A DNA stretch of 64,000 bases from Sessilibacter corallicola (GTDB lineage Bacteria > Pseudomonadota > Gammaproteobacteria > Pseudomonadales > Cellvibrionaceae). The stretch covers positions 186,001-250,000 of the forward strand of contig NZ_JAJSLX010000003.1 of assembly GCF_021290925.1 (NCBI RefSeq), in the 5' to 3' direction. The notes beneath the pieces are model-generated. The model was given only the letters and a program-made list of their open reading frames with translations. It was not told the origin of the DNA and searched no databases. Within the stretch, counting starts at the first letter, position 1; each line of letters begins with the position of its first letter. Shown here piece after piece: positions 9,251 through 23,590 of this stretch. The position numbers were made by a program, and so were the translations under genes.

Positions 9251-9505
9251 TTAGTCACTTTCACCCCAAAGGAAGTCATCGATTTCTTTCATCAGATAGG
9301 CGTTTTCTTTAAAATTTTTGACAATATTTTCCGCTTCTTCTTGGTTGTAGCCTTGTAAGGTGAAACTCGTTGTTCCAACCTCTTTGCCTTCGTAAAACAG
9401 CTTGACGTTAATCAGCCAATAACCGGCATTCAGCTCCCGACTTTGCAACGATATAAAAGCGCTTAGCTCGCCGTCTAAGGGTGTCATGTAGTTTAGGTTG
9501 TCCAT
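9251..9505 (-). CDS. Small unknown protein coupled to a NifX-like gene
   Basis: I do not recognise this 84-residue protein. It reads as a compact alpha/beta domain (GYWLINVKLFYEGKEVGTTS strand pair, then helix EEAENIVKNFKENAYLMKEIDDFL). It is acidic, with no cysteines and no signal peptide. The start ATG at 9503-9505 lies just after the stop of the NifX-like gene, so the two are one unit. A TTG at 9517 would overlap that stop and is less likely. A role in cofactor handling is only a guess from its partner. Confidence 0.7.
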   Translation of the reverse strand: MDNLNYMTPLDGELSAFISLQSRELNAGYWLINVKLFYEGKEVGTTSFTLQGYNQEEAENIVKNFKENAYLMKEIDDFLWGESD

Positions 9506-9507
9506 CG

Positions 9508-10011
9508 TTAACCCCAATCTTCCTCGCCTTCGGAAAAAGCAAACGCAGGTTTATTGTTATTTTGAATCGATGCATCGAGGATTTTGCTTTGCTTGGATTT
9601 TTTTCGAATAATATTTGCCAACCAAAACTCCGGCTCTCCCTGCAGCTGGCTTTGAAGCTCTTCTATTAACTCCTCGACATCTGGCCCGCCAGTTACTTTT
9701 TTTGGCGTGATACCCAAAGATATAAGCTGCCGTGTTGCAGACCCACCGATTGAGCCGCAATAGACAAGATCGCAACCCACAAGCCAGCTCAATTTAGGCT
9801 TCAATTTGTCTTCATTGCCATCTTTTGCCTCTCTAGCAAATTTTTTCTGAATGAGAAGATTGGCTTCATCTTGACTCACGTCGTAAACGTAAAAGCCCTG
9901 ACTGGATCCAAAATGCTGATCAACCATGTCGCCTTCCAATGAAGCAAATGCGACAACCAGGTTTGTATTATTCGGTAAACAATCCGCGATACAATCGATA
10001 GAGCTCGACAT
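9508..10011 (-). CDS. NifX/NafY-family cofactor-binding protein (second NifX-like copy)
   Basis: The 167 residues hold one dinitrogenase cofactor-binding domain (about residues 17-125). The motif is VDQHFGSSQGFYVY, followed by CDLVYCGSIGGSATRQL and a C-terminal GEPEFWLANIIRKKS resembling NifX/NafY ends. About 35 extra residues follow. It is a paralogue of nifX (5744-6217) and lies upstream of the nifEN operon on the same strand. The ribosome site AGGAGG is excellent. I see no sigma-54 promoter upstream, unlike the other nif units here. Confidence 0.85.
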   Translation of the reverse strand: MSSSIDCIADCLPNNTNLVVAFASLEGDMVDQHFGSSQGFYVYDVSQDEANLLIQKKFAREAKDGNEDKLKPKLSWLVGCDLVYCGSIGGSATRQLISLGITPKKVTGGPDVEELIEELQSQLQGEPEFWLANIIRKKSKQSKILDASIQNNNKPAFAFSEGEEDWG

Positions 10012-20566: not shown

Positions 20567-21487
<921 letters not shown>

Positions 21488-21522: not shown

Positions 21523-21540
21523 GAGCAGTGGTTGTGCCAA
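21523..21540 (-). promoter_or_regulatory. Sigma-54 promoter for nifHDKTY
   Basis: The minus strand reads TTGGCACAACCACTGCTC, with GG (21537-21538) and GC (21525-21526) 10 bases apart and a perfect TGGCAC -24 element. The leader to nifH would be about 75 bases. Confidence 0.8.
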
Positions 21541-21639: not shown

Positions 21640-21655
21640 TGTGTTAATAACGACA
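21640..21655. promoter_or_regulatory. NifA upstream activator site 1 (nifH / SIR2-like)
   Basis: Exact TGT-N10-ACA (TGTGTTAATAACGACA), about 100-120 bp upstream of the nifH promoter and about 130-145 bp upstream of the divergent one. Confidence 0.7.
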
Positions 21656-21696: not shown

Positions 21697-21712
21697 TGTA
21701 GCAAAGCCGACA
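21697..21712. promoter_or_regulatory. NifA upstream activator site 2 (nifH / SIR2-like)
   Basis: Exact TGT-N10-ACA (TGTAGCAAAGCCGACA), 57 bp from site 1. It is about 73-88 bp upstream of the divergent SIR2-like promoter. Confidence 0.7.
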
Positions 21713-21782: not shown

Positions 21783-21799
21783 CTGGCGCAGTATTTGCT
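21783..21799 (+). promoter_or_regulatory. Sigma-54 promoter for the SIR2-like gene pair
   Basis: CTGGCGCAGTATTTGCT has GG (21785-21786) and GC (21797-21798) 10 bases apart, with TGGCGC at -24 and TTTGCT at -12, close to consensus. Confidence 0.75.
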
Positions 21800-22013: not shown

Positions 22014-22865
22014 GTGGCAATTCCGGAAAAGTCAGAATTAATTGCAAAAATGAAATCGGGCGAGCTTATTCCCTATCTGGGAGCTGGCGCGCTCGAAGGC
22101 GTTAAAAATGTAGCTGATGGAACGTCTATCCCTGCAGATAGCGAGAGCCTAATTCTTGCTATGACCGGCGGTACGCCAATGGCGCCTAGATTAATGTATG
22201 AATTTCCGCGTGCTGCAATGCACCTCGAAAATAAAAAAGGACGTAGCTTTTTAGAAAGATTTTTAAAGAAAACCTACGCTGAAACAGACTGGAGTGACGC
22301 TGCCCTTCACACATGGCTGCACTCTGTAGAAACGCCGTTTATTATCGATTCCAACCGTGACTTAAAAATGCAAACGCTGTTAAAAGACAGAGCGCATAAC
22401 CTTATCGTTGGTGCCGCGCGCCTTGCTGCGCATCCTCACCGCTTCGATATTTATGAATGGGTAGACGGCAAATACCAACTGCGACCACAGGATTTAGTCA
22501 ATACAGCCCTCCCTACACTGTTTAAACCACTTGGCAGCCCAGAGCCAAAACCGAGTTTTGTCGCCTCAGATGCCGATTTTGTTGATTACATAACAGAACT
22601 TATGGGTGGGTTTGCGATTCCCGCGTGGATTAAAGAAAAACGTATCAATAAACAATATTTATTTTTAGGCATGCGTTTTACACGAGACACCGAGCGCATG
22701 GTGATGAGCGATATGATCTACGGTGCATCGGAAGACTGTGCAGGTTGGGCGTTGATCCCAGAGCCAACAGACAAAGAAAAGCGTTTTCTAACGAAGAAAA
22801 ACGTCGTAATTATCGAACAAGACTGGACCTCATTTTTAAAAAATGAAGTCCTACAAGCCGCTTAA
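22014..22865 (+). CDS. SIR2-like (SIR2_2-type) protein divergent from nifH
   Basis: The 283 residues show the layout of SIR2-like NAD-binding domains. An N-terminal glycine-rich loop IPYLGAGAL is followed by PFIIDSNRDLKMQ, in the place of the usual TTNYD motif. KPLGSPEPKPSFVASDADF stands in the place of K-x-HGS, and YLFLGMRFTRDTERM lies near the end. The histidine expected before GS in active SIR2 enzymes is replaced by leucine. NAD hydrolysis is therefore doubtful and nucleotide binding more likely. The start codon is GTG at 22014 with GGGGAGGA upstream. It has a sigma-54 promoter and NifA sites shared with nifH. Confidence 0.75.
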   Translation: MAIPEKSELIAKMKSGELIPYLGAGALEGVKNVADGTSIPADSESLILAMTGGTPMAPRLMYEFPRAAMHLENKKGRSFLERFLKKTYAETDWSDAALHTWLHSVETPFIIDSNRDLKMQTLLKDRAHNLIVGAARLAAHPHRFDIYEWVDGKYQLRPQDLVNTALPTLFKPLGSPEPKPSFVASDADFVDYITELMGGFAIPAWIKEKRINKQYLFLGMRFTRDTERMVMSDMIYGASEDCAGWALIPEPTDKEKRFLTKKNVVIIEQDWTSFLKNEVLQAA

Positions 22866-22888
22866 TTTTAAATTTATGGAGACAAGGT

Positions 22889-23452
22889 ATGTTGTTAAAT
22901 CAATACGCGGAGAAATCGCTTTTGTGTAACGTAAGCGTGAACGGTAAAACAAGCGAAGACAATGTGTATGTTTACCGAGGCGACATGGTGATCGAAGAAG
23001 GCGAAATCGCGGATTCCCAAGGCCGCCGTCATCCGCCCAAGTCAGTCGTTAAACAAGCCGTAACTATGGGCTCGGAGTCGAAGTTAGACGTTGTTGCCGG
23101 TGCTGTCGATAATCTCGAATTTATACCTGACTTTATCGCCAAATACGGCACTGATTTCAGCGAGAAAATTAATTGTCTTTTTTATGTCTCGAACATTAAG
23201 AAGCCGATGGTTGTTGATGTAGATGGTATCAGCACGACGGTTCTTCCTCACGATGAAGGCGCGGTATGGACAATGCTTATGGATGATTTACGGTTGGAGA
23301 AAAGCGACTTTAAAGGTCAAAGTGCTGAGGATAAAGTCATCACTATGTTTGAGGCACTCAGCGATTACAAACCCGGTGCTGAGGTATTGCCTTTTGATCA
23401 AGCAATAAAAAATACCGTGGAAATAAAAAAGGAAGCTAGAGGTCCGGTTTAA
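22889..23452 (+). CDS. Unknown protein coupled to the SIR2-like gene
   Basis: I do not recognise this 187-residue protein. It looks soluble and mixed alpha/beta, with an early strand-rich part (about 10-35, LLCNVSVNGKTSEDNVYVYRG region) and a middle segment NCLFYVSNIKKPMVVDVDG. It starts 23 bases after the SIR2-like stop with GGAGAC upstream, so the two form a two-gene operon ending at the terminator at 23567. Its co-regulation with nifH suggests a nitrogenase-related role. Nothing in the sequence names it. Confidence 0.75.
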   Translation: MLLNQYAEKSLLCNVSVNGKTSEDNVYVYRGDMVIEEGEIADSQGRRHPPKSVVKQAVTMGSESKLDVVAGAVDNLEFIPDFIAKYGTDFSEKINCLFYVSNIKKPMVVDVDGISTTVLPHDEGAVWTMLMDDLRLEKSDFKGQSAEDKVITMFEALSDYKPGAEVLPFDQAIKNTVEIKKEARGPV

Positions 23453-23566: not shown

Positions 23567-23590
23567 GGTGGCCCATTGGCCGCCTTTTTT
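23567..23590 (+). terminator. Rho-independent terminator after the SIR2-like operon
   Basis: 7-bp stem GGTGGCC / GGCCGCC (one U-G pair) with a CATT loop, followed by six T. Confidence 0.8.

Follow-up and report, generated by a model that had tools for sequence, protein, structure and literature searches.

The SIR2-fold protein encoded beside nifH in Sessilibacter corallicola is almost certainly PnfA and probably not an enzyme

We found that the SIR2-like gene adjoining nifH in Sessilibacter corallicola is, with near certainty, the orthologue of pnfA (PST1325). The first-pass annotation had presented this gene and its downstream neighbor as a possible new nitrogenase-linked NAD system, which is partly supported. 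The system is not new, since pnfA is a named nif-associated gene with a mutant published in 2010 (PMC2820453, accessible text). Its product is predicted to be SIR2-like but is probably non-catalytic, neither an NADase nor a deacetylase. Our best reading is that PnfA is a non-enzymatic accessory protein built on a dead SIR2 fold, with a protective or redox-coupling role. We give this reading a little better than an even chance, an estimate that includes the near-certain gene identity. The confidence that we attach to the various readings overlaps in part, and they do not form a strict partition.

The window, i.e. the whole 64-kb stretch of DNA analyzed (G000:C3:186001-250000), is part of a 4.70-Mb genome. 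Both open reading frames proposed for the pair were confirmed (Table 1). They are separated by 23 bp, and a GGAG-type ribosome-binding site precedes each. The sequences IPYLGAGAL and KPLGS, quoted in the first-pass annotation, are residues 19-27 and 171-175 of the window PnfA. Its nearest relative found is 66% identical.

Table 1. Features of the nifH-pnfA region, in positions of the window
Feature	Position	Strand	Remarks
nifH	20567..21436	-	NCBIfam nifH TIGR01287, 470 bits, above cut-off; divergent neighbor of the pnfA orthologue
Sigma-54 (-24/-12) type site toward nifH, TGGCACAACCACTGCT	21524..21539	-	10/11 consensus letters
NifA-type site TGT-N10-ACA	21640..21655		motif scan of nifH-pnfA intergenic region
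NifA-type site TGT-N10-ACA	21697..21712		motif scan of nifH-pnfA intergenic region
Sigma-54 type site toward pnfA and B, TGGCGCAGTATTTGCT	21784..21799	+	10/11 consensus letters
pnfA orthologue	22014..22865	+	GTG start, 283 aa, 31.9 kDa; SIR2-fold protein (predicted); Leu173 replaces catalytic His; Gly23-x-Gly25, Asn114 and Asp116 retained
Protein B gene	22889..23452	+	ATG start, 187 aa; occupies PST1324 position; confident alpha/beta model
Possible intrinsic terminator, T run after it	23567..23584	+	downstream of protein B gene

The gene is identified as pnfA because its position, its length, a named homologue and the promoter agree. In Pseudomonas stutzeri A1501, according to the accessible text of PMC2820453, pnfA also lies divergent from nifH, encodes a protein of 31.7 kDa and depends on NifA and RpoN (sigma54) for expression; PST1324, which comes after it, shows 26-fold induction. 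The window resembles A1501 in the divergent arrangement, in the NifA- and sigma-54-type intergenic sites, in protein size and in having a gene in the B position downstream. The sequence link to A1501 was made through Stutzerimonas azotifigens DSM 17556 (locus L075), rather than through A1501's own sequence; Yan et al. name the PnfA of P. azotifigens as a homologue, at 92% to that of A1501 (PMC2820453, accessible text). In L075 the orthologue is an open reading frame of 283 aa and 31.9 kDa with a GTG start that adjoins nifH, and a relative of gene B comes after it. The window protein is 61% identical to it, with the same length and mass.

A role in nitrogenase function, as the first-pass annotation had supposed, finds support in A1501. 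The available portions of PMC2820453 report that a non-polar pnfA mutant retained 23% of its nitrogenase activity under microaerobic conditions (0.5% oxygen), that nifH mRNA was unchanged and that nitrate-supported fixation was lost. Under plain anaerobiosis the mutant was about like the wild type, with activity low in both. The same portions report close homologues of PnfA in diazotrophs only. The phenotype was measured in A1501, whereas for the window it is presumed. From weak similarity to UspA and ETF-alpha, rather than from a comparison with SIR2, Yan et al. guessed at electron transfer or oxygen protection (PMC2820453, accessible text), and we found no biochemical idea for pnfA after 2010 in the open PMC literature.

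The SIR2 kinship of PnfA-type proteins is already present in annotations. In the accessible parts of later papers, PST_1325 is called a SIR2 family protein of the nif cluster (PMC11332353), the figure legend of another study names a SIR2 family protein in the Rhodovulum nif operon (PMC9412634), and PST1325 was expressed in E. coli after transfer of the island (PMC6053447). Rcc03262 of Rhodobacter capsulatus is described as a nif-cluster SIR2 family protein that was not found in a nifA mutant (PMC6925177, in part). ZMO1821 of Zymomonas, also SIR2 family and in the nif cluster, is raised during N2 fixation and is a supposed deacetylase, and NifA, NifH and NifK are reported to be acetylated in that organism (PMC8594446 and PMC8600466, in part). 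Rcc03262 and ZMO1821 share their nif location with the window PnfA. However, they may belong to a distant clade with 25-29% identity and Trp in place of Asn. Our searches of the open PMC literature found no paper on the PnfA active site and its freely varying His position, on neighboring hemerythrin, draT or modABC-like genes, or on the unmatched model of protein B.

A structure prediction and a search with the SIR2_2 profile had been proposed as checks of the SIR2 assignment, and both uphold it. The window PnfA matches SIR2_2 (PF13289) above the gathering threshold (27 versus 24.5 bits, E 5.4e-6). An AlphaFold model from an alignment of 25 sequences is confident (pLDDT 91.7, pTM 0.91) and has a SIR2 Rossmann fold. 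When this model was compared with the PDB by Foldseek, DSR2, KomC, AVAST5 and ThsA were among the first 25 rows (E 6e-9 to 1.2e-7). VIA-align gave Z 18.4 for ThsA, 17.9 for DSR2 and 17.6 for KomC over 234-242 residues at 3.3-3.5 A, and Z 12.3 for human SIRT3; sequence identity to the structural matches in the top ten rows is 13-18%. The PnfA family profile finds KomC by sequence too (E 6e-4). Because these structural and profile matches agree, PnfA is predicted to be SIR2-like over its entire chain, with NAD-cleaving defense proteins as the nearest known structures. PnfA shares with ThsA, DSR2 and KomC the fold across nearly the whole chain and the Asn and Asp of the TTNYD-type motif. It differs from them in the absent catalytic His, in the replaced Ser of the glycine loop and in its nif locus, and ThsA and DSR2 carry further domains. 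PADLOC matched no models to either PnfA or protein B up to E 10, and NCBIfam and PHROGs gave nothing for the SIR2 protein.

The first-pass annotation had noticed Leu at the place of the catalytic His, and this holds. In a sequence alignment, as opposed to a superposition, the His column contains His in 14/14 ordinary SIR2_2 proteins and Leu173 in the window PnfA; the profile-profile match behind it spans 236 columns (E 8.8e-13). The comparison set consists of 14 of the 21 SIR2_2 places in related genomes, with four excluded as pnfA itself and three as partial or weak. Within the PnfA family, the catalytic His is absent from 93 of 97 close-clade rows (which include two repeats, L099 and L138) and from all 8 distant rows. 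Residue 173 is L in 44 close rows, M in 44, H in 4, T in 3 and V in 2; the distant rows have L in 7 and W in 1. On a quick tree of 103 rows, with L099 and L138 left out and the His column kept in, this residue changes at least 12 times. The only close rows with His are L078 (Azotobacter beijerinckii) and L088, L092 and L095 (Marinobacterium), which amount to two changes by the tree count.

The claim that the SIR2 glycine loop is kept stands in part. Gly23-x-Gly25 is present in the window (GAGAL), but Leu or Val stands in place of the loop Ser in 105/105 family rows, and 7 of the 97 close rows no longer have the second Gly. The Ser is a soft criterion, as ordinary SIR2_2 proteins have it in 12 of 14 cases (8 of them GAGxS), with Leu in one and Pro in one. 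The Asn region was correctly described as kept, with the Asn and Asp of the TxNxD motif (N114, D116) both present. Gly23 and Asp116 occur in 105/105 rows and Asn114 in 97/97 close rows, while Trp takes its place in 8/8 distant rows; Gly174, Asn114 and Asp116 are invariant across the close clade. Thus, of the features of a catalytic SIR2 NADase or deacetylase, PnfA has the Asn and Asp and lacks both the His and the GxGxS Ser. It is because the catalytic position drifts, although much of the pocket frame stays, that we regard the protein as probably non-catalytic. The invariant Asn114 and Asp116 could reflect remaining chemistry or ligand binding.

A distant PnfA-like clade in nif-bearing genomes (L029-L036 and phylum-sample genomes) has 25-29% identity and Trp-Tyr-Asp for Asn-Arg-Asp; perhaps it is the family of Rcc03262. 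The Sessilibacter genome also has a second SIR2_2 domain (G000:C1:801664-802083, L165), within a 1282-aa frame and with the His present, which is probably an ordinary defense-type protein.

The reported linkage to nif is confirmed well beyond the divergent nifH of the window. A clear pnfA match was obtained in 41 sampled genomes, and every one of them has nitrogenase-type genes, 36 by nifH and 5 by PF00148. These genomes come from an even sample of the class, a sample of the phylum (two genomes being common to both) and G001, G023 and G051. The class sample (n=274) includes 23 genomes with a pnfA match, namely the window genome, 14 at 50-57% identity and 8 at 27-32%. Of its 26 genomes with nifH, 22 are among these 23, so that nifH occurs in 22/23 genomes with pnfA versus 4/251 without it (Fisher p 2e-27, uncorrected for kinship). 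The one genome of the 23 without nifH is G324, which has PF00148 genes. The four nifH genomes without a pnfA match are G114, G125, G233 and G250. In the phylum sample (n=398), there are 17 clear matches (E below 1e-70), 14 with nifH and the other 3 with PF00148 genes. At most six best candidates per genome were scored in the phylum searches, so some pnfA genes may be missed, and 26 of the 40 nifH genomes in that sample have no clear match. The function of PnfA is therefore dispensable or replaceable.

Five genomes with pnfA have no nifH at the threshold (G001, G324, G364, G388 and G566), and in G001 and G324 pnfA is located at a contig end. All five have PF00148 matches, but this family covers bacteriochlorophyll and related reductase subunits too, so the matches are support rather than proof. 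Three weak, partial matches in the phylum sample (G377, G425 and G500; E 2.4e-5 to 1.6e-4) were set aside as ordinary SIR2 proteins; G500 has a PF00148 match, and G377 and G425 have none. Of 449 confirmed pnfA loci, the best 80 were examined; these lean to close relatives and include several contig ends. Among these best 80 of 449, nifH was found in 60, divergent and upstream in 60/60; in the other 20 it lies outside the fetched stretch. Wide occurrence of the pair in non-diazotrophs without nif had been named as evidence that would count against the original proposal. The SIR2 gene was never in that situation among the clear matches sampled, but gene B was once (G028).

Each gene is faced by a sigma-54 type site in the 577-bp region between nifH and pnfA, which also contains two NifA-type sites (Table 1). 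At the window's own rate, 0.28 NifA-type sites are expected per 577 bp. Just seven sigma-54 type sites of such quality exist in the window on both strands. The site facing pnfA is 230 bp ahead of the start codon, a greater distance than in most relatives. We scanned the 52 loci with nifH within 1.4 kb among the 60 nifH-bearing loci (from the best 80 of 449). Toward nifH, a site with at least 9/11 consensus letters is present in 52/52. Toward pnfA, such a site is present in 28/52, compared with 2.4 expected from mononucleotide shuffles, and is absent from 24/52. We infer that pnfA and gene B form one two-gene NifA-sigma54 operon divergent from nifH. The terminator in Table 1 is of a kind seen twice in the region versus 2.3 expected from shuffles.

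Protein B had been coupled to the SIR2 protein by the first-pass annotation as a partner without a name. The pairing exists in the window, and 22 of the best 80 of 449 loci, including Pseudomonas, Stutzerimonas, Azotobacter and Azomonas, have gene B on the same strand as pnfA and at most 200 bp beyond it, but B is not an obligatory partner. Pfam, NCBIfam and PADLOC contain no family that matches the protein significantly. NCBIfam and PHROGs each gave one chance-level match (E 0.054 and 0.12), and the best Pfam hit among 32 B proteins was E 0.0084 in a single member; the alignment of these proteins holds 32 of 33 rows, L106 being left out for unread bases. The model of protein B has a pLDDT of 92.3, and its best PDB results (sequence E 0.1, Foldseek E 0.02, Z 3.5) contain no convincing match, which means the lack of a match and not a new fold.

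Gene B is present in 9/274 class genomes, all with nifH, and in 4/58 relatives. One of these relatives, G028, has neither nifH above the cut-off nor a PF00148 match. There, B forms one co-directional run with a small uncharacterized protein, a hemerythrin and a modABC-like transporter (L062:12387-17095), outside any nif cluster seen. The order pnfA-B-modABC-like occurs in G023 (L037), L066 and L068, and in G001 gene B is divergent from modBC-like genes and adjoins a FeMo-cofactor-domain protein. Two of the loci have TOBE, permease and SBP_bac_11 domains, and on this ground, and by similarity to these loci, we call the transporters putatively molybdate-type. Protein B resembles an accessory on the molybdenum and nitrogenase side more than a constant partner of the SIR2 protein.

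Elsewhere in the window, positions 9251-9517 (minus strand) encode a small protein without a Pfam match, whose relative (52%) adjoins B in G028 and is found beside hemerythrins in L085 and L116. Perhaps this is a second uncharacterized nif-associated family.

Instead of B, a hemerythrin-like gene can follow pnfA. By raw count, 24 of the best 80 of 449 loci (L108, L110-L113, L115, L118, L119, L121, L123, L124, L130-L132, L134-L136 and L139-L145) have such an open reading frame in the same orientation and at most 400 bp downstream. Fourteen of the 24 are Gallionella, Sideroxyarcus or other Nitrosomonadales-type records, and the remainder include Thiorhodococcus, Sedimenticola and a zetaproteobacterium. 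All ten hemerythrin-like frames checked match PF01814, nine of them immediate pnfA neighbors in the 24 loci. The near downstream partner is thus of two kinds, B or hemerythrin, with both in that position in none of the best 80 of 449 loci; the order pnfA-B-hemerythrin occurs in L133 and L137. The window has no hemerythrin beside pnfA. We found no paper in the open PMC literature that mentions hemerythrin, nifH and SIR2 together. A hemerythrin is listed in a nif cluster in a figure legend of a 2024 Nature paper (PMC11208148, accessible part).

The first-pass annotation had noted that draT is absent here, and indeed the whole genome (G000) has no PF07357 match. However, its idea that the SIR2-like pair could stand in for DraT/DraG is not supported, and we rejected it. 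Nine of 12 draT-bearing diazotrophs also carry pnfA, versus 17 of 18 without draT (n=30, p 0.27), i.e. there is no association, and 10 of the best 80 of 449 loci have draT upstream of pnfA in the same orientation, at a distance of at most 600 bp. In G141 the order is nifH, draT, pnfA, hemerythrin, and in G182 and G240 draT is between nifH and pnfA. DraT/DraG ADP-ribosylation and PnfA are alike in apparently acting on nitrogenase after transcription, and their genes adjoin in some relatives, but the proteins belong to different families and draT is missing from the window genome.

O2 and the NO made from nitrate each inactivate nitrogenase, and hemerythrins are O2-binding proteins that can bind NO also. 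Our best reading, the non-enzymatic accessory protein, would combine the above observations as follows. NifA and sigma54 would drive pnfA and B as an operon. PnfA would share its ancestry with the NADase effectors of phage defense and would have lost their catalytic His. It would act post-transcriptionally, keeping nitrogenase active during O2 or nitrate respiration, and would probably do so as a binding or scaffold protein in O2/NO protection or redox coupling. Such a function would account for the frequent hemerythrin neighbor in relatives. We favor a protective or redox role because the phenotype is post-transcriptional and is seen where O2 or nitrate is respired, and hemerythrin points likewise. 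The operon structure, the non-enzymatic action and this role are inferred, as would be any ligand or direct contact of PnfA with B or hemerythrin. Only a single mutant of one species (A1501) has provided the phenotype, and the absence of hemerythrin beside the window pnfA, the 230-bp promoter distance and the His in 4/97 rows count against the reading. So do the skew of the hemerythrin loci to Nitrosomonadales-type records, the 24/52 loci without a 9/11 site toward pnfA, the invariant Asn114 and Asp116 and the nifH genomes without a clear pnfA match.

Another reading makes PnfA a structural chaperone or an assembly factor that serves nitrogenase or the supply of its metals, without an O2 or redox role and with B as a molybdenum-side partner. 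It would fit the unconstrained His site, the pnfA-B-modABC-like loci and the modABC-like genes near B in G028, a genome without a PF00148 match. We consider this explanation possible but unlikely: an assembly defect would be expected under plain anaerobiosis too, yet the mutant was like the wild type there, albeit with low activity in both. We are similarly doubtful about a nucleotide-sensing PnfA, a refinement of the idea in the first-pass annotation. Such a protein would bind NAD(H), ADP-ribose or a similar nucleotide, leave it unhydrolyzed and report the redox or energy state to nitrogenase, sometimes with DraT. NAD-bound structures of DSR2 and KomC are among the closest fold matches, Gly23, Asp116 and (in the close clade) Asn114 are invariant, and draT is near upstream in 10 of the best 80 of 449 loci. 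However, the loop Ser is always Leu or Val, the second Gly is sometimes lost, the distant clade has Trp at the Asn position, the window genome has no draT and draT shows no association with pnfA among the 30 diazotrophs. A more elaborate idea, to which we assign a distinctly low probability, is that of a defense-type SIR2 NADase turned nitrogenase guardian as its catalysis was lost. Here an NAD(H)- or ADP-ribose-binding pseudoenzyme would shield or switch nitrogenase during respiration. A hemerythrin that binds O2/NO would assist it, a part that protein B would take in Pseudomonas, Azotobacter and the window's group.

The retained Asn and Asp, the SIR2 family annotation in several nif clusters and the acetylation of NifA, NifH and NifK reported in Zymomonas (accessible text) would suit an active SIR2 enzyme, an NADase or lysine deacetylase working on nitrogenase proteins as supposed for ZMO1821. 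But the His is gone from nearly all close rows and every distant one and is freely replaced, and we rejected this very improbable reading for the missing residue. Least credible of all is the suggestion, also made by the first-pass annotation, of a phage-defense relic sitting by chance in the nif cluster. The closest solved folds are indeed defense NADases, but the gene is conserved (intact and 49-66% identical in the close clade), every sampled genome with a clear match has nif, NifA-type sites precede the gene, PADLOC has no match and the A1501 phenotype (accessible text) contradicts a relic. For a conserved gene with NifA-type sites that A1501 needs, the relic idea fits as fold kinship only.

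This analysis adds an assignment of structure and active site, a count of co-occurrence with nif and a description of the hemerythrin, draT and modABC-like neighborhoods. The confidently predicted SIR2 fold that lacks the catalytic residue, the restriction to nif in our samples and the recurrent hemerythrin and draT neighbors make pnfA testable as a nitrogenase-protection or redox-sensing protein. If ZMO1821 belongs to the PnfA family, the same findings speak against its supposed deacetylase role. Should the guardian idea be true, PnfA would be one more post-translational layer alongside DraT/DraG and conformational protection of the FeSII type. The transfer of nitrogenase into new hosts may require helpers like PnfA. 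More broadly, PnfA is a case of a defense-enzyme fold reused for metabolism.
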